A model generated the notes under the pieces. The model was given only the letters and a program-made list of their open reading frames with translations, was not told the DNA's origin and did no database searches. Shown here piece by piece: positions 1,522 to 14,997 of a DNA stretch of 29,095 nt (positions are counted from its first letter, which is position 1; each line of letters begins with the position of its first letter). A program made the translations under genes and the position numbers. Source of the DNA: Anaerolineales bacterium (GTDB lineage Bacteria > Chloroflexota > Anaerolineae > Anaerolineales > Villigracilaceae); contig JAICQC010000012.1 of assembly GCA_025938055.1 (NCBI GenBank), positions 1 through 29,095 of the forward strand, given 5' to 3'.

Positions 1522-1554
1522 AAAAAAACCACGGTGCACTTCGGTGCACCGTGG
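1522..1554 (-). terminator. Intrinsic terminator in the exporter leader (attenuator segments 3:4)
   Basis: On the minus strand CCACGGTGCAC (1554-1544), loop CGAA, GTGCACCGTGG (1539-1529), then seven T (1528-1522). The 11-bp stem is perfect. It ends 18 nt before the exporter start codon, downstream of the promoter at 1709-1737 and of the leader ORF. Confidence 0.92.
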
Positions 1555-1577
1555 CATAAAGACACAGAAGAAGACCG

Positions 1578-1649
1578 CTACCGGTCCACAGGCGCACTCC
1601 GACAAGGTATTTTGTTGTGGTCCCGACCCGTCAATATCAATCGAAACAT
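1578..1649 (-). CDS. Leader peptide ORF, 23 aa, upstream of the ABC exporter
   Basis: A short ORF begins with ATG at 1649-1647, reads MFRLILTGRD then HNKIPCRSAPVDR, and stops with TAG at 1580-1578. A strong ribosome site, AAAGGAG (1664-1658), lies 8 nt upstream. It starts about 53 nt after the predicted transcription start and ends 24 nt before the terminator stem. Codons 9-12 (Arg-Asp-His-Asn) lie on RNA segment 1 and codons 18-22 on segment 2 of the alternative structures described under the regulatory feature. I do not recognise the peptide. There is no run of a single regulatory codon, so drug- or peptide-induced ribosome stalling is more likely than an amino-acid sensor. Translation is inferred from the ribosome site and position only. 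Confidence 0.72.
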   Translation of the reverse strand: MFRLILTGRDHNKIPCRSAPVDR

Positions 1650-1708
1650 GGAATGCGCTCCTTTCTTTAGGAATCTCTTACAAGCGAAGCAGTCCTATGG
1701 ACAGAGGC

Positions 1709-1737
1709 AGTTTACATCAGGAAATAGACAAAGTCAA
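1709..1737 (-). promoter_or_regulatory. Sigma70-type promoter for leader peptide and ABC exporter
   Basis: Minus-strand -35 TTGACT (1737-1732), 17-nt spacer, -10 TAAACT (1714-1709). Predicted start near 1702, giving a leader of about 200 nt before the exporter ATG. It lies just past the stop codon of the SUI1 gene, so the exporter has its own transcription unit. Confidence 0.8.
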
Positions 1738-5143: not shown

Positions 5144-6670
5144 TCACCGTGGTTCGAATGGACGGTTTGCATTTTCCAGATGAGCGAAAAATTCTTCTTT
5201 CAGTTTGGAGAACACCGAAAGCATAGCCGTCTGGAGGTCATGCAGTTCTTCCGGATCATTTTCAAGATCATACAATTCGAACAGATCACCACCCTCGTCA
5301 TAGCCAAGGTAGACGATCAGCTTGTACGCCCCTTTACGCATGGCAAACGCCGCCCTGGTAAGCGGAAGGAAGGCGGAATTTTGCCATGCCGCCATCGAAA
5401 ATATGGGGCGTTCCGAGTCGGCAGGTCCGGGCAGAACCTGCCCATCCAAGCCATCGGGGATCTCCTTGCCCGCTATTGCCAAGAGAGTCGGCAGGATATC
5501 TACGTTGCTGGTCGGCAGATGAATGTCATTTCGGGCAGCCTGCCGCGGCGCATGGATCAGCAGAGGGGTGCGTAACATAGGCTCATACATGAGCCTCCCA
5601 CCGTGACCATCAAAGCCACGTTCGAACATCTCTCCATGGTCAGAGGTCAGGATGAGATAGCTGTCATCCAGTACACCGCTTTGCTCCAGTTGCTCGATCA
5701 ATTTTGCAAGTTCTTCATCTACCTGGGCGATCTGCCGGTCATACACTGTACGCTTTCGAAGCAGCTCTTCCTCCGATTCGGTGTACAGCGAGGTAAACTC
5801 CGGGATGACCACTTTGGGCTGTGCTGCAAAACCATCATTCCGAAAAAGCCGCGCGAACTTCCCGCCGGGCTTATAAGGAGAGTGAGGCGAGAACAGATGA
5901 AAGTACGCAAAATAGGGTTGTTTATCTTGCATGCTCAGAATCTCTGCCAGCACACCTTTGTAGATTTGCTCATTCAAATAAACGTTATATCCCTCGACCT
6001 CCGGGACGCCGTTGGGATACCCGGGCTGCGCCTTCTGCGTTTCAATGGAGTGGGAAACCCGGCTTTTGTAGAAATAGTTGAGAAGCGCAGACCCCGGTCG
6101 GTCCGTTTGGGCAGGGAAAAGAAATTCATCGAATGCAATCGATGCCAGTAACCGGTCCTTCCCCACCCAGCTTTTGACCAGCGTATTGCCGCGCATACTG
6201 TAAGCCGTTTGCGGTAGAAAGTTATCTACATCCTGATAGTACTGCGCAACGAGACGGTCGGGCCAGAAATTCTGAGAAAACATCAAGCGATGATAATCCG
6301 TGCCAAGCAGTGTGTAAGGGTTGTATGGAACAACATCCCGCCGCACGATCCCACCCTGCGTCAGCGCCCGGTGCTTCCAAGGATACATTCCGGTCAGCAT
6401 GGAGGCGACGCCCGAGGTGGTGAAATTGCTGGCAGAATAATGAGCGTGATAAACCGTACAACGCTCTGCAAAACGACTTAGCTCCGGAGTCGTTGCACGC
6501 TCATACCCGTACAGTGACATATTCAGCGCAGACAGCGCATCGCACAAAATGATGATGATGTTGGGGCGGTTGTCTTGCAGCTGCAGCGAAGACGCGGTCA
6601 GAGTGGAGAGCGTTCCAGCAGTGAAGAGCGAAGCAATCTTGAGGAAATCCCGCCGCGTCAGCATAGTCAT
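5144..6670 (-). CDS. Tat-exported alkaline-phosphatase-superfamily transferase/hydrolase, module 1 (sulfatase-like, Thr nucleophile)
   Basis: About 508 aa. The N-terminus has a twin-arginine signal, LTRRDFLKIAS, followed by a hydrophobic stretch, so the enzyme acts outside the membrane. The sulfatase fold is clear: RPNIIIILCDALSA (metal Asp near 44), NFTTSGVASMLTG near 83-94, [11 protein letters not shown] near 340, then GHGG and NVDILPTLLAIAG. Where sulfatases have CxPSR the sequence is TTSGV, so neither Cys nor Ser is available for formylglycine; Thr84 or Thr85 is the likely nucleophile, as in LtaS/MdoB/EptA phosphotransferases. The second Asp of the sulfatase metal pair is also absent. I chose ATG at 6670 because AAGG, overlapping the stop of the upstream gene, sits 7 nt before it. 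It directly follows the membrane protein at 6680-7228. Substrate unknown. Confidence 0.88.
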   Translation of the reverse strand: MTMLTRRDFLKIASLFTAGTLSTLTASSLQLQDNRPNIIIILCDALSALNMSLYGYERATTPELSRFAERCTVYHAHYSASNFTTSGVASMLTGMYPWKHRALTQGGIVRRDVVPYNPYTLLGTDYHRLMFSQNFWPDRLVAQYYQDVDNFLPQTAYSMRGNTLVKSWVGKDRLLASIAFDEFLFPAQTDRPGSALLNYFYKSRVSHSIETQKAQPGYPNGVPEVEGYNVYLNEQIYKGVLAEILSMQDKQPYFAYFHLFSPHSPYKPGGKFARLFRNDGFAAQPKVVIPEFTSLYTESEEELLRKRTVYDRQIAQVDEELAKLIEQLEQSGVLDDSYLILTSDHGEMFERGFDGHGGRLMYEPMLRTPLLIHAPRQAARNDIHLPTSNVDILPTLLAIAGKEIPDGLDGQVLPGPADSERPIFSMAAWQNSAFLPLTRAAFAMRKGAYKLIVYLGYDEGGDLFELYDLENDPEELHDLQTAMLSVFSKLKEEFFAHLENANRPFEPR

Positions 6671-6679
6671 GATCACACC

Positions 6680-7228
6680 TTACACAAAGATCCGTACCAG
6701 GACGATCAGGAGTGCAAAGGCGGTCAGCGGCAGATAGAGATACAGGAAGACAACAAAACGGTCTGCCATGCTTTCCAAACCGTGGCGAATCCAGTTGATC
6801 CTTCCGGCAATCCACGTCAGGAATACGGCAATCAACGATGTGCCTGCCCACCAGCCAGATTGACTGCTCAGGAATGCTTCCCGTGTATCCGGCGTTCGGT
6901 AAAGTGTAAGGTGCATGAGCGCGGACACAAGGATCACCAGGATCAATACAAACCCTTTGGGAATAAACGTGTCCGCCCACCAGTGACGGGGCAAGACAAT
7001 ACTTGCCAAAAGGACGGGGAACAGCAGCAAAATGCTTTCCATGAAATTCACCAGGAAAGCATAGGCGTAGATGGACACGATCTCGCCAAATTCCAGAAAA
7101 AACAGCCAGGACGGCAATTTCCAGAACGAGGTAAAAAGTGTCCAGGTATATACGAGAAACATAGCAACCGCATAAACGGTCACTATGTTTCTCTTGTCGG
7201 GAATACGGGTCGCCAGATCCCTAAGCAC
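6680..7228 (-). CDS. Small polytopic membrane protein, partner of module 1
   Basis: 182 aa with about five to six predicted membrane helices (near 15-36, 41-60, 61-80, 93-110, 126-145 and 158-182). It shares a pattern with the proteins at 9547 and 14397: VYAV...WT near the start, FWKLPSWL, then GEI..IYAYA..N..ES, and a C-terminal DRF/DRLTVFLY helix. No catalytic motif is seen and I know no named family. The GTG at 7228-7226 overlaps the end of gpmA by 8 nt and gives the same N-terminal length as the paralogs. It is followed after 9 nt by the Tat-exported enzyme; the constant pairing suggests a membrane partner that binds or presents the lipid substrate. That role is inferred. Confidence 0.82.
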
Positions 7229-7973
7229 CCTTCGCCTTTGCCTGATTCGCCACCGCCGCAGCTTTCTTTGCTGCCTCGTCAGGGTCGCCCAGATAGTAAT
7301 GCTGGATCGGCTTCAAATCATCGTCCAACTCATAGACGAGCGGCACACCGGTGGGTATATTCAAACCGGGAATCTCCTCCTCTGAGATGCCATCCAGGTA
7401 TTTCACCAGGGCGCGCAGACTGTTGCCATGCGCCGCGACCAACACTCGCTGCCCCGACGTCACAGCCGGCGCCAGCACCATGTGCCAGTACGGCAGCACC
7501 CTCTCGAGGGTGATCTTGAGCGACTCGGTTGCAGGCAGCTGTTCAGGCGTCAGCGCCGAATAGCGACGGTCAAAGCGCGGGTGGCGTTCATCTGCCGGTT
7601 CGAGGGCAGGCGGCGGGATATCATAACTGCGACGCCAGACGTGCACCTGCTCTTCGCCAAATTTCTGCGCCATCTCAGCCTTGTTCAACCCCTGCAACGC
7701 CCCGTAGTGACGTTCATTCAACTGCCAGGCGCGATAGACGGGTATCCACTCCAGCCCCATCTCCTCCATAATAATCCACAGAGTTTTTATTGCCCGGCGC
7801 AGAACCGAAGTATACGCAACGTCGAAGTCGTAGCCACCCTCCCGTAGCAATCGTCCGGCTTCATGTGCCTCAGCCACACCCTGCTCTGTCAGTCCGACGT
7901 CCGTCCAGCCTGTGAAGCGATTTTCGAGATTCCATGTGCTTTGCCCGTGGCGGACCAAAACAAGCTTATACAT
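7221..7973 (-). CDS. gpmA: 2,3-bisphosphoglycerate-dependent phosphoglycerate mutase
   Basis: Interconverts 3- and 2-phosphoglycerate in glycolysis and gluconeogenesis, in the cytoplasm. The 250-aa length equals E. coli GpmA. Motifs: [10 protein letters not shown] with phospho-His9, the segment [29 protein letters not shown] with the catalytic Glu, and [14 protein letters not shown] with the second His. The last 20 residues are an Ala/Lys-rich tail. A GTG at 7991 would extend it by six residues, but AAGGAG lies 7 nt before the ATG at 7973, so the ATG is preferred. It sits between two membrane-protein/phosphotransferase modules, overlaps the next gene by 8 nt and clearly shares their transcript, which is an unexpected place for a glycolytic enzyme. 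Confidence 0.95.
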
Positions 7974-7990
7974 TCCATGTCTCCTTGTCA

Positions 7991-9538
7991 CTATTTCATT
8001 TCAAAATTGCGATTGACGGTGAGGACAGCCTCGAGCAATTCATCTTTCATATGTGATGCTGTAGTTATATCTCTACTGAATAAATCCTGCAACTCATCAG
8101 GGTCTTCCTGCAAGTGATAAAGCTCAAACCCATCTGGCTGCCTGGGGTAGCCTGTGAAATAGAACAATTCGTAATCGCCTTTGATCAGTGTAAAGGTGGC
8201 GCGCTCCAGAGGTTGAAAGGCAGGGTTGTCCTTGGCGCCCATCGGGAAGAGACTTCGGGACGCGTCCTCAGTCCCACCGAAACCGGGCAGGAGTCTGCCT
8301 TCGGCGGAGGCGGGGATTTCCCTCCCGGCGATGTGCAGGACGGTTGGCAATAGATCCATGTTGCTGGTGAGGGAATGGACGTCTGCACGAGCGCTCTGCC
8401 CCGGCGTCGAGATCAGCAGGGGAATATGGGTCACGGGTGCATACAGCAGAGCAGAGGCGTGCCCCACCTCGCCGCGTTCGAACATCTCTCCGTGATCGGA
8501 CGTGACAATTACATAGCTGTTCTGCAGGATGCCAGCCTGTTCCAGAGAAGCGATAAGGCGACCGAACTCAGCGTCCAGATCGGCGATGGATTCATCATAC
8601 TCGCGACGGTGCTTCCGCATATTCTCGGCAGAAAAGCTGTTATTTGCCAGCAAGTGCTTAGGCTTATCCTGCAATTTCAGTTCCTCCTGAAACATGCCGA
8701 CAAATTCGCGGCGGGCGTTATAGGGTTCATGCGGAGACCACAGGTGGAAATAACCAAGATACGGTTGCGCCTGACTGAGACGGTTCAGGATGAGTTCACC
8801 GATCCCCTGAAAAACATCCGGATTCTCGAAGGCGCAATCGTAGTTGGTAGGAAGCCCTCTTGGATATTCGGGGGAAATTTGATGCCGGTCCGTTGTCAGG
8901 GCTCGGGTCAGGTCGGCGGAGCCCAGCAGGAGCGAACCGGGATAGGGATACAGGTCATCCACACGGATATTGAGGAAGTCCTGAAAAACGTAGTATGCAA
9001 TGCTGCGGTCGCGCGGCAGGTTATCTGGCTGCATCAACGAGCGGGCATACTGACTGTAGGAATCACAGGGCAGGTGAACATCCAGATCAGCTTCAAACTG
9101 GCTCAAGAGGATATCTGCCCACAGGTTCTGGGTGAACGCCAGACGAGTATATTCGGAACCGATCAAATGAAAGAGATTTTGCCTGGTGAGTGTGCGGTCG
9201 ACCATGCCGCGGTAATTGAAGGCGCGGTGAGTCCACGGGTACAACCCTGTCAGCATCGAGGCGGTTCCGCTGGTCGTAAAATTCCCGGCAGAATAATGCC
9301 TGTGATACACCGAAGCCCGCTCTGCAAACCTCTGAAGGTTTGGAGTGGTCTGCCGGGCATAGCCGTAAAGCGACAGATGCCGTGCAGACATGGCATCGAA
9401 CACAAAAATTAGAATATTTGGTCTACCGGAAGTTTGGGAGCCCGGCGAGGAAAGAATCCGTGATACGCCGCCCAGGGCGGCACTCGCCGCAAGGGCAGCA
9501 GAGGCTTTCAAAAAATCGCGCCGGTTGATCCTGGTCAT
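7991..9538 (-). CDS. Tat-exported alkaline-phosphatase-superfamily transferase/hydrolase, module 2 (sulfatase-like, Thr nucleophile)
   Basis: 515 aa and a clear paralog of the enzymes at 5144 and 12850. Tat signal [19 protein letters not shown]. Metal Asp48 in [13 protein letters not shown], catalytic loop [14 protein letters not shown] with Thr88/Thr89 in the place of the sulfatase Cys/Ser, metal-binding [11 protein letters not shown] near 347, then GHASALLY and [18 protein letters not shown]. The ATG at 9538 follows AGGGA and lies 8 nt after the stop of the membrane protein at 9547, the same arrangement as in the other two modules. The lack of a formylglycine residue argues against sulfatase activity; a phosphotransferase or phosphodiesterase acting on an envelope lipid or polymer fits better. 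Which group is transferred cannot be told from sequence. Confidence 0.88.
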
Positions 9539-9546
9539 GGATATCC

Positions 9547-10086
9547 CTAGCTGATATTACGAAAAACGATATATGCAGAGAGGGCGGCAAATAAGGGCAC
9601 GAGTATATACAAAAACACTGTCAGGCGATCCGAGATCCAGGCGATAGCAGAATGCAAAAAACGAAACCGCGGCGCGAGCACCAGAAGCAATATGGTGAGC
9701 AAAAGCACAGTCAAAGGTCCAAGAAACAATCCCAGCCCACCGCCCATCCCAAACTGCATGTGCATACGTACGAACGCCATCAATGACCCAACCATGCCTG
9801 CGGCAAGAATCGTCCCGCGTACTGCGAAGTCATCGCGCAGGTTCGACTGTGGCACCAGCACGCAGACCATCAGGATGAGCAGCAAGACCAGCAGGCTTTC
9901 CAGCAGATTCACCAGCATGGCATACGAAAAAATGGTAAAGATCTCTCCCAGATTCAGCAGGAGCAGCCACGCAGATAACTTCCAGAGGAAGGCTGTGATC
10001 GTCCAGGCAGAGAACATCACGGCGATCACCGCGTAGACCTGGAGGATCGATTGCGGCATGGGCAGGCGCCTCAGTAAAGTGTTCAC
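9547..10086 (-). CDS. Small polytopic membrane protein, partner of module 2
   Basis: 179 aa, paralogous to the proteins at 6680 and 14397. Shared landmarks: ILQVYAVIAVMFSAWT in the first helix, FLWKLSAWLLLLNLGEIFTIFSYAMLVNLLES written across helices two and three, a polar RDDFAVRG loop, and DRLTVFLYILVPL in the last helix. The start is GTG at 10086-10084, 7 nt after the sulfotransferase stop; the ribosome site is weak, so it may depend on coupling. The Tat enzyme follows after 8 nt. No enzymatic motif is visible. Confidence 0.82.
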   Translation of the reverse strand: MNTLLRRLPMPQSILQVYAVIAVMFSAWTITAFLWKLSAWLLLLNLGEIFTIFSYAMLVNLLESLLVLLLILMVCVLVPQSNLRDDFAVRGTILAAGMVGSLMAFVRMHMQFGMGGGLGLFLGPLTVLLLTILLLVLAPRFRFLHSAIAWISDRLTVFLYILVPLFAALSAYIVFRNIS

Positions 10087-10093
10087 GTCGTCT

Positions 10094-10711
10094 CTAGGTA
10101 TCCCGCCGGGTGCGATTTCGATATAACTGTTGATCGGGCACCGCGAGCATCTGCGACTGGTTAAGCGGCAGTTCGAGAAACTCGATGATGTCCTGACACC
10201 GCGCCGCGGGCTCAGCGATCAGCGCGTTGTAATTGACGTAGAGCACTTCCATATTCGGCTGGCGCACCAGCCAGGGCTTCATGGCAGCAAGATGCGTATG
10301 AAATTGCTGCTGCATTTCATCATCCGTCAGTTTGGAGGTTTGCCCGCGGTGATCCAGCATCTTTTTCTGAGAGGCAAGAGTTTCCCTGCTGTCACGCTCC
10401 ATAAAAATGATCTTGTATTGATACTCCGGCGGAAGATATTCCAACAGCGCCGAGATGACTTTTACCGCTTTCCCATTCGCTTCCTTGAGCCAGGCGAAGT
10501 TTCCCTCTTTGAGCTGCCTGACAACCTCTAACTCAAAATATCCTTTGGGATTGTCATCGTCCGCGCGGCGAAGTTCATCGGTGAGAACCGGCATGCCGCC
10601 TTCCGCCAGCATCCGCATCATCATGGAGGTCCCTGAGCGCGGCAAGCCCGAGACAATGAAAATCGGCTGTCTGCCTACACTTGTTTTCTTTGGTCGTGAA
10701 AACAATTTCAT
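10094..10711 (-). CDS. Sulfotransferase family protein (PAPS-dependent)
   Basis: 205 aa with the 5'-phosphosulfate-binding loop VSGLPRSGTSMMMRML near residues 20-35, and an IIFMERDSRETLASQ segment that fits the 3'-phosphate-binding region. It should transfer sulfate from PAPS to a hydroxyl or amine of an unknown acceptor in the cytoplasm. The C-terminus (EPAARCQDIIEFLELPL) is typical of the family. Its ATG follows the stop of the phosphodiesterase gene directly (TAAATG), so the two are co-translated. The company of three phosphotransferase-like enzymes suggests a role in decorating an envelope lipid or polymer. Small sulfotransferase-fold kinases and look-alikes exist, so the sulfate donor is not proven. 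Confidence 0.85.
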   Translation of the reverse strand: MKLFSRPKKTSVGRQPIFIVSGLPRSGTSMMMRMLAEGGMPVLTDELRRADDDNPKGYFELEVVRQLKEGNFAWLKEANGKAVKVISALLEYLPPEYQYKIIFMERDSRETLASQKKMLDHRGQTSKLTDDEMQQQFHTHLAAMKPWLVRQPNMEVLYVNYNALIAEPAARCQDIIEFLELPLNQSQMLAVPDQQLYRNRTRRDT

Positions 10712-12529
10712 TTACAGATACCCCAGTCCTTTCAAACGTTCTTCGACATCTTTTTGTCCCTCGCCAGCAGCCTGGGAAGGAGGTTTGAGATTCGATTGAT
10801 CAAGGTGTTTCCCGATCGCAAGGAAAGGAATGTCGCGAAAGGAGATGGTGCCGAAGTCGCGCAGGTCGCGGTTTGCAAAGATCACACCCGGAACCGCGTC
10901 CGAATCCATACAGTGATCGGCACCCCAGTGATCGGAATTCGACTCAAGCACGGTGCCGGGAATTTTGCCCAGCCCCGTTTCGGCAGAGGCGCGATAGCCA
11001 GGCGCGTAGCCCACAACCAGGTCGGGACCGAACCGCGTATAGGGTCCGGAGTACGTCTCGTGCTTGAAGCGAATCTTTTGAACTATCGGGCTTTGATCGC
11101 TGTCCTGCCAGTCCAGTAATTTTCCTCTGATCTCAGCGAGCAGGGGCTCCACCTCACCGGCAGCGACAATGCCCTGTCCCTCGCGTCCCGAGACGTTGAG
11201 ATAAACGCTATTCAACCCGACGGCGTAGGCGCGCGTCTTTTTCCAGTCCACTCCAGTGAGATCGCTGCCGCCGTTTTCTATAAACAGGTAACTGTTCTCG
11301 AGCAGCCAGCGGTTGAGGTGTACCTTCCTTCGAAAATCCGCGAAGCCATGATCGGAAAGGATTAAATAGCGATATTTGCCAGACCAGCTTTCGAGACGCG
11401 CGCTCACGTCACCGATAAAGCGATCGAGCCGTTTGTACCAATCCTGCACCACATCCATGCGGTTATGGAAGAACATGTGCTGCACGCGATCAAGATCATC
11501 GAAGATCGCGGCAAGCACGCCTTCATGGAAATCATTCATTAGATAATAAAGGATCTCGATGCGCCGATGGAAGATGGACTGGCACAGGTCCAGGAACTGG
11601 TCGTCTGTAATGCAGCCATCTTCGAGACCTGTCGTATCCTGTGGCCAACCCAATGTGAGATAGGGTCCCACGTCCTTCCAAAGTTTTTTGGAAAAGCCTG
11701 TAGAAGATGCATAATGCCAGGGCGAATGCAGCGGATGAATCTGCAAGGGCAGTGCATAGACGCGGACCACACCGTTCAGTGATGTGGCAATAAAACGCGT
11801 GATCGCATGGACAGTCAATAACATCCCGGCTTTGAACCGCAGCTCGACGATATCGCTCCATTCACCAAGCCGCAGGTCGAGCTGGCGATGATCAACAGTC
11901 AGCCGTGCGGAGGTTTGATCGAGGATGTCCAGCGTGAGGGATAGATGGATCGTGCGCGGACCGTCACGGCCTGGCGTTTGAGGTCCAGGCAATGAGGCGG
12001 TAAACCGATTCTTCCCGGACTCTTCGAGCTTCACAACTGTCGTTTTCTTCCGCTGCTCATCTTCGGTGGTCAGAAGTGTGCCAACGCCCAGTTGTCCGCG
12101 TATATCGGGCGTGCCGAGTCCGGGAAGGGTGTTGACGGGCAAGGCAGGGCGCGCCGGGAACATGGCTGGCCACCAGAGAGCCGTTGCCGGGTACCCCATA
12201 TCGGCGGTCTCTTCAAAAAACGTCTTTGCTGTGTAGGGTGGGACAAACTGCTCACCCACCGCGCTCGTGCGCATGGGAAGGATCGATACATAAGGTGCAT
12301 AGCTGACCGGATCACGGTGCACAAAGTCAAAAATGCCATGCCCGCCGGGATCCGCGCCGGTCGCAATACTGGTCCAAGAGACTTCAGTTTGCGGTGGAGA
12401 ACATACTTCCAGCCTTGAGTAACCGCCCTGTTGTTTGAACTTTTCAAGGTTCGGTAATTGGTTTTGTCCTGCCAGGTCCTCGAAGACGTTTGGGTCGAAT
12501 GAGTCAAATCCGAGAATAAGGGTTTTCAT
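10712..12529 (-). CDS. Type I phosphodiesterase/nucleotide pyrophosphatase family protein (COG3379-like)
   Basis: 605-aa alkaline-phosphatase-superfamily enzyme. Motifs: TLILGFDSFDP with metal Asp9, PPQTEVSWTSIATGADPGGH with probable nucleophile Thr48, FDDLDRVQHMFF near 343 and YLILSDHGF near 386 for metal binding, and SDHWGADHCMDSD toward the C-terminus. No signal peptide or membrane segment is seen, so it is probably cytoplasmic, unlike the Tat-exported relatives in the same cluster. The C-terminus ends VEERLKGLGYL, a tail common in this group. It lies 20 nt after a 53-aa membrane peptide gene and abuts the sulfotransferase gene. Likely hydrolyses or transfers a phosphoester; substrate unknown. 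Confidence 0.86.
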   Translation of the reverse strand: MKTLILGFDSFDPNVFEDLAGQNQLPNLEKFKQQGGYSRLEVCSPPQTEVSWTSIATGADPGGHGIFDFVHRDPVSYAPYVSILPMRTSAVGEQFVPPYTAKTFFEETADMGYPATALWWPAMFPARPALPVNTLPGLGTPDIRGQLGVGTLLTTEDEQRKKTTVVKLEESGKNRFTASLPGPQTPGRDGPRTIHLSLTLDILDQTSARLTVDHRQLDLRLGEWSDIVELRFKAGMLLTVHAITRFIATSLNGVVRVYALPLQIHPLHSPWHYASSTGFSKKLWKDVGPYLTLGWPQDTTGLEDGCITDDQFLDLCQSIFHRRIEILYYLMNDFHEGVLAAIFDDLDRVQHMFFHNRMDVVQDWYKRLDRFIGDVSARLESWSGKYRYLILSDHGFADFRRKVHLNRWLLENSYLFIENGGSDLTGVDWKKTRAYAVGLNSVYLNVSGREGQGIVAAGEVEPLLAEIRGKLLDWQDSDQSPIVQKIRFKHETYSGPYTRFGPDLVVGYAPGYRASAETGLGKIPGTVLESNSDHWGADHCMDSDAVPGVIFANRDLRDFGTISFRDIPFLAIGKHLDQSNLKPPSQAAGEGQKDVEERLKGLGYL

Positions 12530-12549
12530 ACAAAAGGAGCGCTGAATCC

Positions 12550-12711
12550 TTATTGTTGAGATTCGTCTTCATCCTTACGTCCACGGCGACGCAGACGTGC
12601 AATCCATTGGCGTATCGAACGCGAAAAAAAGAACAGGGCGCCCGAAATGACGGCAAGCAGACCTGCCAGTGCCTGAAACAGAATACCACCTGTGTTTGGA
12701 TCTATATACAT
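12550..12711 (-). CDS. Small membrane peptide, 53 aa, MYIDPNTGG type
   Basis: The ORF starts MYIDPNTGGILFQALAG, continues into one hydrophobic helix (about residues 10-29), then a basic stretch IRQWIARLRRRGRK and an acidic end DEDESQQ before TAA at 12552-12550. One helix with a cytosolic basic tail is the obvious topology. Similar D-P-x-T-G short membrane proteins occur beside alkaline-phosphatase-superfamily genes; that is from memory and was not checked here. A purine-rich AAGAAAG lies upstream of the ATG at 12711. It is the first gene after the promoter at 12801-12830 and lies 20 nt before the phosphodiesterase gene. Function unknown; a membrane tether for the phosphodiesterase is possible. 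Confidence 0.78.
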   Translation of the reverse strand: MYIDPNTGGILFQALAGLLAVISGALFFFSRSIRQWIARLRRRGRKDEDESQQ

Positions 12712-12800
12712 TGTTTAATTCTTTCTTGTTTTTTAGGTCTTGTGCAAGCATTTCTTTGCGAAGCCAGCCCGTGATGGTTACAAGCCTGCACAGAGGGTGA

Positions 12801-12830
12801 ATTGTATACTCGACGGTAGGAAAGAGTCAA
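12801..12830 (-). promoter_or_regulatory. Promoter for the 53-aa peptide / phosphodiesterase / sulfotransferase operon
   Basis: Minus-strand -35 TTGACT (12830-12825) with -10 TACAAT (12806-12801) at 18-nt spacing, or the overlapping TATACA at 16 nt. A small hairpin TCGGG-AAAA-CCCGA (12845-12832) lies between the stop of the third module and the -35 box but has no T tract, so it is at best a weak terminator. Confidence 0.7.
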
Positions 12831-12849
12831 TTCGGGTTTTCCCGAGACG

Positions 12850-14394
12850 CTACAAGCCATCGAAGGGTTTGTTCACAGTACTCAACGTGTCCAGCAGTTC
12901 TTCCTTCATCAGAGATGCAACCGCAGGTCCACTCGCAAACAGATCCTTTTTTTCTTCGATATCGTCCTTTAGGTCATACAGTTCAAAAATATTCGAGTAT
13001 CGTGGGTAATCACCATAATAAATGATCTTGTAATTCTCTTTCATCAGCGTGACGGTCGCGCGTTTCAGGGGACCAAAGGCAGAATTCGTCTTTGCTTCCA
13101 CGGCAAAAATACTCCGGTCGGAGTCATCCGCGCCCCCAAACCCTGGCAGGAGCTTTCCCTCCAGGGAGGGAGGTATCTCGGCGTCTGAGAGGGCGAGCAG
13201 CGTCGGCAGTACATCCACGTTGCTGGTGCGGGTGTAAAAATCCCGCCGGGCACGCTGTTGAGGCGCAGAGATCAGCAAGGGAATATGGATGACCGAATCA
13301 TAAAGCAGGAACGTGTTATGCCCATTCTCCCCACGTTCGAACAATTCACCGTGATCCGAGGTGACCACAAGGTAGCTATTGTCAAGGATGCCGGAAGACT
13401 CCAGTCTATCCACCAGTGCACCGAACTCAGCATCCACATTTGCAATATATTCATCATATTGCATGCGATATTCATTGAGCAGCAACTGCCGGACATGATT
13501 ACCCAGCTTGTGTCGCTCTTTGAACGGAAGTTTAATCTCCGGGAACATGCCAATGAAATCCTGACGCGCGCAGTATTTTGCATGCGGCGATAGAAGGTGA
13601 ATATAGGCAAGATACGAGCGCGGCTGTTTTTCCAGCGCCTGGATCGTCTCGAAAACGCCTGTATACACCTCGCGATTATCATAGAAATAAGTACCTGTCG
13701 AAGGCATACCGCGCGGATATTCTGGCGACGGATTGCCGGGAGCCTCATGGGATTGCCCGTAAAACAGATCCAGATATCCAAAGTACGGCGAGCCAGGGAC
13801 GGGATTACTGGTCACATTCGAGTTGATCAAAAAGTCGTCGAACGCATAGTGAGCCATCACTGGGTCTGATGGAAAATACTGGCTGATGTCGAAAGCCTTG
13901 CGCTCACTGCTGTAGGACGTCAGTGGAAGATGCTGATGGATATCTGCCCTACATTGATGCAACAGCACGTCCGCGAGAATATTTTGCGCGAACGCAACAT
14001 TCATCCGATCCCGCCCGAGGAGACGGAAAATATTATCGTCAGCCATTGACCGGGCTACGGGCGCGCCCAGGTTGATCGCACGATGCCCCCACGGATACCG
14101 GCCTGTCAGAAGTGTAGCCGTGCCCGGCGTGGTGAAATTCCCACCTGAATAATGGGAATGATAGACGGAGGCACGCGAAGCGAAGCGCTCAAAGTGGGGC
14201 GTGGTCTGCCGTTCATACCCGTATAAGGACATGTGACGTGCAGAAAGTGTGTCGATGAGGAGAATGATGATATTCGGCTTCTGCGATCCATCTGGCTGAA
14301 GCGGGTCAACCAACGGATGCGCACCCGCCAAAAGTGCATTTGTCGCAAATGCACCCATCAACTTTAGAGTTTCACGCCGGGTAAGCCTGGACAT
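12850..14394 (-). CDS. Tat-exported alkaline-phosphatase-superfamily transferase/hydrolase, module 3 (sulfatase-like, Thr nucleophile)
   Basis: 514 aa from the ATG at 14394, which gives a twin-arginine start MSRLTRRETLKLMGAF and leaves 2 nt after the stop of the upstream membrane protein. A longer ORF reaches 14496 but would overlap that gene by 100 nt and bury the Tat signal. Landmarks match the other two copies: Asp48 in IILLIDTLSARHMSLYGY, GNFTTPGTATLLTG with Thr88/Thr89, TSDHGELFERG near 346, GHNTFLLY, and SNVDVLPTLLALSDAEIP. This copy keeps Pro in the loop (TTPGT), closer to the ancestral CxPSR spacing but still without Cys or Ser. Acts outside the membrane; substrate unknown. It ends next to the promoter of the following operon. 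Confidence 0.88.
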   Translation of the reverse strand: MSRLTRRETLKLMGAFATNALLAGAHPLVDPLQPDGSQKPNIIILLIDTLSARHMSLYGYERQTTPHFERFASRASVYHSHYSGGNFTTPGTATLLTGRYPWGHRAINLGAPVARSMADDNIFRLLGRDRMNVAFAQNILADVLLHQCRADIHQHLPLTSYSSERKAFDISQYFPSDPVMAHYAFDDFLINSNVTSNPVPGSPYFGYLDLFYGQSHEAPGNPSPEYPRGMPSTGTYFYDNREVYTGVFETIQALEKQPRSYLAYIHLLSPHAKYCARQDFIGMFPEIKLPFKERHKLGNHVRQLLLNEYRMQYDEYIANVDAEFGALVDRLESSGILDNSYLVVTSDHGELFERGENGHNTFLLYDSVIHIPLLISAPQQRARRDFYTRTSNVDVLPTLLALSDAEIPPSLEGKLLPGFGGADDSDRSIFAVEAKTNSAFGPLKRATVTLMKENYKIIYYGDYPRYSNIFELYDLKDDIEEKKDLFASGPAVASLMKEELLDTLSTVNKPFDGL

Positions 14395-14396
14395 GT

Positions 14397-14960
14397 TTAA
14401 CCCAGAAAGACGTTCCTGACGAACACCACAGCCAGGGAGAGAACAGCGAGGGGAATCAGGATGTATAAAAAGACGGTTAAGCGGTCCGATATCCATTCGG
14501 CTGTAAGACGCATAAACCGGATCTTCCCCGAGAGGAATGTCAACACAGCGACAATGACAAGGCTGCCAATAGACCAGGCGATCAAGGACATCTCAGCGTA
14601 TGTAAAACGCGTCATCCCGCGCCAGATTCCATACCCAAAAATGGAAAGCGTCAAGCCGATGGCAAGCCAGGTGCCGCGGACTACAAACTGGTCTCGGAAC
14701 GAGGTTGTCGGCAATATCAAACAAAGCAATAAGAGGAGAGCGCACAGAAGGACCCCCTCAATAAACGCAGTCATCAGTGCATACGATAAAATCGCTGTAA
14801 TCTCCCCAATAGTTAGAAAATTAAGCCAGGACGGTAATTTCCACAACCAGGAGGTAATTGTCCACCCAAAGATGGGGACTCCGATCACGGCAAAGACCGG
14901 TAGGATTGCAGAGAGGTTGGGAAAACGTTGCAGGATGCCAGTCACCAGACAAACCATCAT
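14397..14960 (-). CDS. Small polytopic membrane protein, partner of module 3
   Basis: About 187 aa with five to six predicted helices, paralogous to the proteins at 6680 and 9547: LPVFAVIGVPIFGWTITSWLWK, then LPSWLNFLTIGEITAILSYA, a FRDQFVVRG loop, and SDRLTVFLYILIPL in the last helix. The start is uncertain. Two ATGs (14960 and 14957) have no good ribosome site, while a GTG at 14945 would give the same N-terminal length as the paralogs. It is the first gene behind the promoter at 14998-15026 and lies 2 nt before the Tat enzyme. Confidence 0.8.
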   Translation of the reverse strand: MMVCLVTGILQRFPNLSAILPVFAVIGVPIFGWTITSWLWKLPSWLNFLTIGEITAILSYALMTAFIEGVLLCALLLLLCLILPTTSFRDQFVVRGTWLAIGLTLSIFGYGIWRGMTRFTYAEMSLIAWSIGSLVIVAVLTFLSGKIRFMRLTAEWISDRLTVFLYILIPLAVLSLAVVFVRNVFLG

Positions 14961-14997
14961 CAAATTCAGACGTGCAGGACTCGATTACAAGTTCATA

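Follow-up and report, generated by a model that had tools for sequence, protein, structure and literature searches.

What does a short open reading frame do between a promoter-like sequence and an intrinsic terminator, directly in front of an ABC exporter gene? The question is raised by positions 1522-1737, read on the minus strand, of an Anaerolineales contig analysed here over 29,095 nt (the window). The original prediction interpreted these 216 nt as a leader-peptide attenuator of the exporter. Comparison with related sequences confirmed that observation and showed it to be larger than stated. Three points were absent from the prediction: the element recurs as a dispersed cassette before several gene classes, one of its pairing segments lies inside the leader's own ribosome-binding site, and the C-terminal end of the leader is not conserved at the peptide level.

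Anatomy of the exporter leader

All parts of the element lie on the minus strand. As predicted, a sigma-70-type promoter spans 1709-1737, with TTGACT (1737-1732) and TAAACT (1714-1709) separated by 17 nt; it was the one promoter-like site that a consensus scan scored between 1400 and 1900, against 0.2 expected in shuffled sequence. The predicted open reading frame of 23 codons plus TAG (MFRLILTGRDHNKIPCRSAPVDR, 1649-1578) is preceded by the Shine-Dalgarno (SD) sequence AAAGGAG (1664-1658), which reads AAGGAG in most relatives and AAGGAA or AAGGAC in the remainder. The spacer between SD and AUG holds segment 1 (1658-1650), supported by covariation as the 5' strand of a putative anti-antiterminator. 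Segment 2 (GGAGTGCGCC, 1600-1591) lies within the leader codons and can pair with either segment 1 or the terminator 5' arm (arm 3). Folding and alignment place a hairpin, GACCG-GTAG-CGGTC (1586-1573), around the leader stop codon, and beyond it lies CTGTG (1567-1563), which could form a helix with CACGG of arm 3 and is a candidate auxiliary antiterminator segment of leaders of the window's type. The terminator stem (1555-1528), found by folding and by a terminator scan, joins arm 3 (1555-1544) to arm 4 (1539-1528) and runs into a T7 tract (1528-1522); it is the strongest of three terminator-like sites between 1400 and 1900, where 0.5 were expected. The exporter ATG (1504-1502) follows 17 nt past the T tract, opening an ABC exporter half (2-1504) of which 501 aa lie in the window before its end cuts the gene; the same half measures 581-587 aa in relatives. 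The assignment draws on relatives and on family models, of which MsbA-like and other exporter models match, every one below its curated cut-off.

The three pairings could each be traced in the window. Helix 1:2 joins 1658-1650 to 1600-1592 with nine pairs by hand count, one of them G-U, in place of the eight of ten first proposed. The 2:3 pairing (1597-1586 with 1554-1544) has the expected 11 pairs and one bulge, at U1590, and was returned by folding once the ribosome-covered part of the leader was removed. The 3:4 stem is perfect, as foreseen, with 12 pairs if the closing G-U is counted. Folded singly, the 189-nt leader outdid all 200 of its shuffles (z -3.48); with the terminator removed, 58 of 200 shuffles were equally good (z -0.61). 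Because the terminator-less fold is ordinary, single-sequence folding supports the terminator only, and the decisive evidence is comparative. Membership of an Rfam family was rejected: the window gave no match at gathering score, and six related loci gave three sub-threshold matches, all in L024, of which the one to EF3314_EF3315 overlaps the leader at 21.3 bits against a gathering score of 100. Elsewhere on the minus strand of the window (5144-14963) we noted by eye three adjacent gene pairs, in each of which a membrane-protein-like gene of about 180 aa accompanies a sulfatase-like gene whose start looks twin-arginine-like.

Conservation and spread of the cassette

A scan of genome contigs with the exporter recovered 80 loci, among which L001-L045 and L049-L051 are close relatives with 72-92% identity in the best segment. 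Leaving out five without the exporter 5' end (L039, L042, L045, L050, L051), we scored 43 relatives at 72% identity or above, and 42 of them carry all four parts (SD, leader, segment 2, terminator); these 42 and the window make up the 43 "window-type" leaders. All close relatives are named Chloroflexi, Chloroflexota or groups within, except L038, a Spirochaetaceae MAG with a 72% identical exporter and no element, for which transfer or mis-binning is possible. The element is also absent from three relatives near 50% identity (L046, L047, L052), whose genomes gave no covariance-model match; the genome of L038 gave one, judged to be chance. From SD to past the U tract, the aligned stretch measures 143-158 nt in 41 of 43 leaders (L013, 124; L020, 173), and the distance from terminator to ATG ranges from 17 to 203 nt. 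Repeat-like elements (GTCATTGCGAGG...) lie within that interval in L003, L008, L011 and L044.

The promoter was scored in 40 of 43 window-type leaders, the exceptions being L021, L027 and L049, versus 3 of 43 shuffled ones. The window's upstream gene, yciH, is upstream in only 2 of 42 relatives (40 with at least 1000 nt to inspect), so the leader follows the exporter and not the upstream gene. Downstream, a second ABC half is present in 36 of the 40 relatives that are long enough, two more being cut off, which makes the likeness to BmrB-BmrCD drawn in the original prediction an apt one. The Walker B motif reads ..FDD in this second half and LDE in the first, a difference also found between the halves of heterodimeric exporters. 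The prediction had named homologous loci as its own check, and on this check the ORF, terminator and alternative pairings are kept, as is the promoter in all but the three leaders above.

To search beyond the exporter we used two covariance models, R1, built from the 43 window-type leaders, and R2, built from 81 matches. R1 matched four of six genomes, in several places each, and 28 of 298 genomes in the class of G001; R2 matched 34 of 400 genomes of the phylum, and within the order it made 51 matches in 34 of 61 genomes. Ten genomes chosen for having matches, most of them several, yielded 3-6 each at E <= 0.01 under laxer filters, some of the weakest being chance. Two other phyla gave 0 of 149 and 0 of 149 genomes, a weak control given the strict filters and lack of a known positive; six other genomes gave one match, judged to be chance, and 38 further loci gave none at E <= 0.01. 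We judged L198, L212, L213, L099, L127, L214 and L234 to be chance matches from their surroundings, L127 consisting of the end of a tRNA gene plus a terminator. The set of 118 matches with fetched DNA leaves out L099 (E 0.013), L127 (E 5.8e-4), L090 (a second copy of L089), G705:C519 (at a contig edge) and repeat places, and includes L100 (E 0.047 with R1) as well as L132, L133 and L174, whose leaders repeat window-type ones; R1 matches in the six genomes at E 0.18 or worse and five laxer-filter matches at E 0.002-0.01 were left aside.

When the genes following these matches were classified by BLASTP to representatives, 110 of the 118 matches were found within 600 nt upstream of resistance-type or ribosome-related genes: ABC exporters (51), GNAT acetyltransferases (32), RsgA (10), DrrA-like ATPases (6), RIO kinases (5), MFS pumps (4) and ABC-F proteins (2). 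The remaining eight stand before something else, nothing or a contig end. Pfam agreed with the class for 19 of 20 representatives or members, the exception being L144, where a 200-aa protein without a Pfam match (1739-2338) sits behind a good cassette. Among NCBIfam models, RsgA passes the cut-off (TIGR00157) and ABC-F falls below it, at 296 of 380 bits, in a protein cut by the fetched stretch. The genome G661 alone carries the cassette before an ABC1-type exporter, an ABC2-type exporter, a GNAT gene, RsgA and an ABC-F gene, plus a sixth, weaker match. Leaders outside the window type also have a promoter, scored in 92 of 107 versus 5 of 107 shuffled. Collectively, these data lead us to propose that the window copy is one of a set of related cassettes wiring ABC, MFS, ABC-F, GNAT, RsgA and RIO-kinase genes to one signal. 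In G001, L089 and L090 have identical ABC2-type leaders, one of them before a broken-off exporter gene.

Base pairing, reading frame and candidate signals

We aligned the 43 window-type leaders, ran RNAalifold and scored the named structure. RNAalifold recovered both the terminator and helix 1:2, and in 8 of 17 pairs the two partners both change somewhere in the alignment. In the named structure 93.1% of 1030 cells pair, versus 24-48% with the 3' partner slid, and 64 cells are changed on both sides versus 21.4 in shuffles. The terminator is paired in 100% of cells (5 of 10 pairs changed on both sides) and helix 1:2 in 94.8% (4 of 9), and in the alignment this helix holds the leader's ribosome site, not the exporter's. 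That placement and the variable distance from terminator to ATG both bear on a possible erm-type translational attenuator, whose alternative structures would mask the SD of the resistance gene. For the stop-codon hairpin (alignment A1), the four inner pairs were 70.6% paired and the outer pair 97.7%. The conserved portion of 2:3 is GTGCG(CC):(GG)YGCAC; since only its GTGCG(CC) part is kept in relatives, the exact 12-nt pairing was rejected as the general form, and the distal GTGG:CCAC of the window, part of the 2:3 helix first proposed, is not kept in most of them. The 5-bp match CTGTG:CACGG, scored in window-type leaders only, is present in 39 of 43 versus 4.2 in shuffles and absent from L033, L034, L037 and L043.

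The arm and loop test of 2:3 is independent, because the match to segment 1 alone served to locate segment 2 before it was scored against the terminator 5' arm and loop. We used 150 of 161 leaders, after dropping L132, L133 and L174 as identical, L153 and L212, for which no terminator was found, and L100, L104, L192, L198, L199 and L213 (finder failed, truncated, chance or His leader); the choice of segment 2 looks wrong in some retained rows, such as L095, L164, L165, L195, L200 and L207. In 145 of the 150, helix 1:2 was stronger than when segment 1 had been shuffled, and a leader's own 2:3 partners scored -15.3 versus -14.0 when swapped (0 of 2000 permutations, a p optimistic for related sequences). 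Where the loop has at least eight bases, the real loop paired better than its shuffles did on average in 59 of 65 leaders (-16.2 versus -11.2 kcal/mol; Wilcoxon p about 1e-11, likewise optimistic because related sequences are not independent). Loop bases dispensable for the stem thus stay complementary to segment 2, which gives the 2:3 antiterminator independent support. By eye, L160 and L210 have T for G at the first base of the segment 2 core and A for C in both segment 1 and arm 3; that base is C in L114, with G in the loop and a mismatch in segment 1, and T in L163, with A in the loop and a mismatch in segment 1. Covariation, loop complementarity and the masked folds described below agree with the predicted mutual exclusion of 1:2, 2:3 and 3:4.

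The leader ORF is open in 43 of 43 window-type leaders, and the same stretch in the other two frames meets stops in 49 of 86 reads. Synonymous changes make up 69 of 208 single-base codon changes in frame, versus 30 of 186 in one alternative frame and 33 of 212 in the other, counted over 39 close, non-independent pairs. Over segment 2, 35 of 43 leaders use a standard frame (mostly ..SRSAPVDR) and 8 another (e.g. ..LEVRLLTV); the exporter tree needs three such switches, two forced by well-supported branches, and other frames also occur in several RsgA-type and DrrA-type leaders. Whichever frame is used, the stop ends 22-26 nt past the start of the RAGYGC motif in 42 of 43 (49 in L020). As segment 2 is read in different frames, the pairing of the RNA and the place of the stop codon count for more than how the peptide ends; judged from these sequences, selection seems to maintain an open leader whose stop falls in the hairpin, with the C-terminal peptide a passenger of the RNA.

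These frame changes bear directly on the possibility that the ..SRSAPVDR end, or a motif upstream of it, arrests the ribosome in response to a drug or the exporter's substrate. SAP or SAL does recur in 70 of 107 other leaders, and the standard frame prevails in the window type; however, the shared letters are those that base pairing needs, and neither the eight deviating window-type leaders nor those RsgA-type and DrrA-type leaders that use other frames fit such a sensor. We consider peptide-specific arrest improbable and rejected arrest at SAP on the frame drift. The macrolide arrest motif +X+ (R/K-X-R/K) was rejected for lack of enrichment over shuffles: 12 of 43 window-type leaders contain one before segment 2 versus 16.2 in shuffles, and 10 of 103 others versus 9.3, so that by this count no drug-specific arrest motif was found. 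Stalling by a drug or by the peptide itself had both been suggested; drug stress is retained as the likely signal, and stalling on the C-terminal peptide is abandoned in view of the frame changes.

A trp- or his-type attenuator, in which scarce charged tRNA stalls the ribosome at regulatory codons, would have the same three-helix layout, and among the residues of window-type leaders arginine is the most frequent (14.6%). The same model also scores L199 (1501-1644, minus strand), in which the leader of a hisG-like gene, named by eye, contains a run of His codons; by its sequence this is a classical amino-acid attenuator in the same phylum. Against such sensing in the cassette, the longest residue run is 2 in the 43 window-type leaders and 3 in 103 others, L199 left out, in keeping with the predicted lack of a regulatory codon run; moreover, the downstream genes are exporters, acetyltransferases and ribosome factors, hisG being the sole amino-acid gene in the 118 matches. 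Amino-acid sensing was rejected on the absent residue runs, and we hold it to be very unlikely. Hardly credible at all is a strong terminator alone, ending yciH or acting as a barrier to transcription noise beside an unrelated short ORF, which would explain the ordinary fold of the terminator-less leader but not the conservation of leader, SD, segment 2 and loop complementarity across gene classes, the rarity of yciH upstream or the leader's own promoter.

A proposed switch and its known counterparts

We folded partial transcripts, defined as the RNA up to the terminator loop, modelling a ribosome on the AUG by removal through AUG+14 and counting 2:3 as formed at four or more pairs. With this ribosome masked, 2:3 formed in all 43 window-type leaders and in 94 of the 103 others. 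With nothing masked, 30 of the 43 window-type leaders formed 1:2 and 13 formed 2:3; among the 103 others the corresponding counts were 43 and 57. The full transcript folds as the terminator in all 43 window-type leaders, so read-through must be kinetic, as in known attenuators. The modelling suggests that equilibrium folding may not keep every unread leader OFF, and that in many members the OFF state may depend on ribosomes that reach the stop codon and not on helix 1:2.

Anatomy, conservation, alternative pairings and spread over gene classes, all established by sequence comparison, fit a single scheme, and we infer from it how the element would act in cells. Transcription would start at the leader's own promoter. 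A ribosome that reads the leader to its stop codon would cover segment 2, allowing the terminator to form (OFF); if the leader goes unread, segment 2 could pair with segment 1 in the leader ribosome-binding site, and the terminator would again form (OFF). A ribosome stalled at the leader start or first codons would instead cover segment 1, leaving segment 2 to pair with the terminator 5' arm and loop, so that RNA polymerase would go on to transcribe the exporter operon (ON). Translation stress caused by ribosome-targeting antibiotics is the likely signal. We therefore regard the element as very probably a ribosome-mediated transcription attenuator of the bmrB/vmlR kind that answers stalled translation, and have high confidence in this mechanism class.

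Some members may carry a further layer. A second terminator-like hairpin lies at most 140 nt past the first in 45 of 106 other leaders (L091, L093, L120, L121, L157 and 40 other loci), versus none in one shuffle each; the window has none in the 17 nt between T tract and ATG. The second 5' arm complements the first 3' arm (-14.3 for own versus -12.2 for swapped partners, 0 of 5000, and 0 of 5000 for swaps within class). Arm 3 and arm 6 show the same trend (-13.7 versus -12.0), however, so terminator duplication explains this complementarity as well as a relay does. We offer a wider picture only as speculation, with the odds against it. In this picture the cassette is read by ribosome occupancy of the leader start and not by its peptide, and it would link exporters, ABC-F, GNAT, RsgA and RIO kinase into one translation-stress resistome throughout Anaerolineae and possibly in other groups; in two-terminator members, the freed 3' arm of terminator 1 would capture the 5' arm of terminator 2, one stall disarming both in relay.

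If the attenuator reading is true, a mostly uncultured group has a home-made response to antibiotics or translation stress, built from one copied RNA cassette, whose membership could be read from genomes by covariance model. The cassette also points to RsgA, a RIO-type kinase and certain GNAT acetyltransferases as candidate factors in translation stress or resistance, and leaders with a drifted frame and preserved RNA form a natural set separating RNA sensing from peptide sensing. Among the open-access papers retrieved, no title or abstract opening describes such an attenuator in Chloroflexi, Chloroflexota or Anaerolineae, and the excerpted attenuator survey (PMC2965389) does not mention Chloroflexi. 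The erm leader figure of PMC11264731, in the portion available, lists Chloroflexota among its species, so erm leaders in the phylum may already be catalogued. For four aspects no counterpart was found in the open-access literature searched: the phylum, the placing of segment 1 within the ribosome site of the leader itself, the recurrence of a single cassette before many gene classes, and RsgA and RIO as targets.

The switching logic itself is already known from bmrB, vmlR, rli80 and toiL, compared here from excerpts of the cited papers. In Escherichia coli, the toiL-topAI uORF senses several classes of ribosome-targeting antibiotic, and stalls at different positions all work; it acts on translation and Rho-dependent termination, whereas the cassette has an intrinsic terminator (PMC12121999). 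The rli80-hflXr leader of Listeria monocytogenes, which controls a ribosome-splitting factor working beside an ABC-F protein, shares transcription attenuation by a short uORF; its 14-codon ORF has an RLR arrest motif, in contrast to cassette leaders without +X+ enrichment (PMC6310831). In vmlR of Bacillus subtilis the antiterminator can form once an antibiotic stalls a ribosome on the uORF, and the uORF lies inside the anti-antiterminator as in the cassette, a likeness of layout; by contrast, its uORF is a tripeptide and its leader also hides the vmlR SD (PMC9226507). The cassette also resembles bmrB-bmrCD of B. subtilis, induced by ribosome-targeting antibiotics, with a leader ORF, terminator, antiterminator and anti-antiterminator as three alternative structures, and a downstream ABC exporter of two different halves (PMC4191407). 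The 53-codon bmrB contains the terminator inside its ORF, whereas the cassette ORF ends before the terminator, and unlike bmrB-bmrCD the cassette places segment 1 in the leader ribosome site and recurs before several gene classes (PMC4191407).
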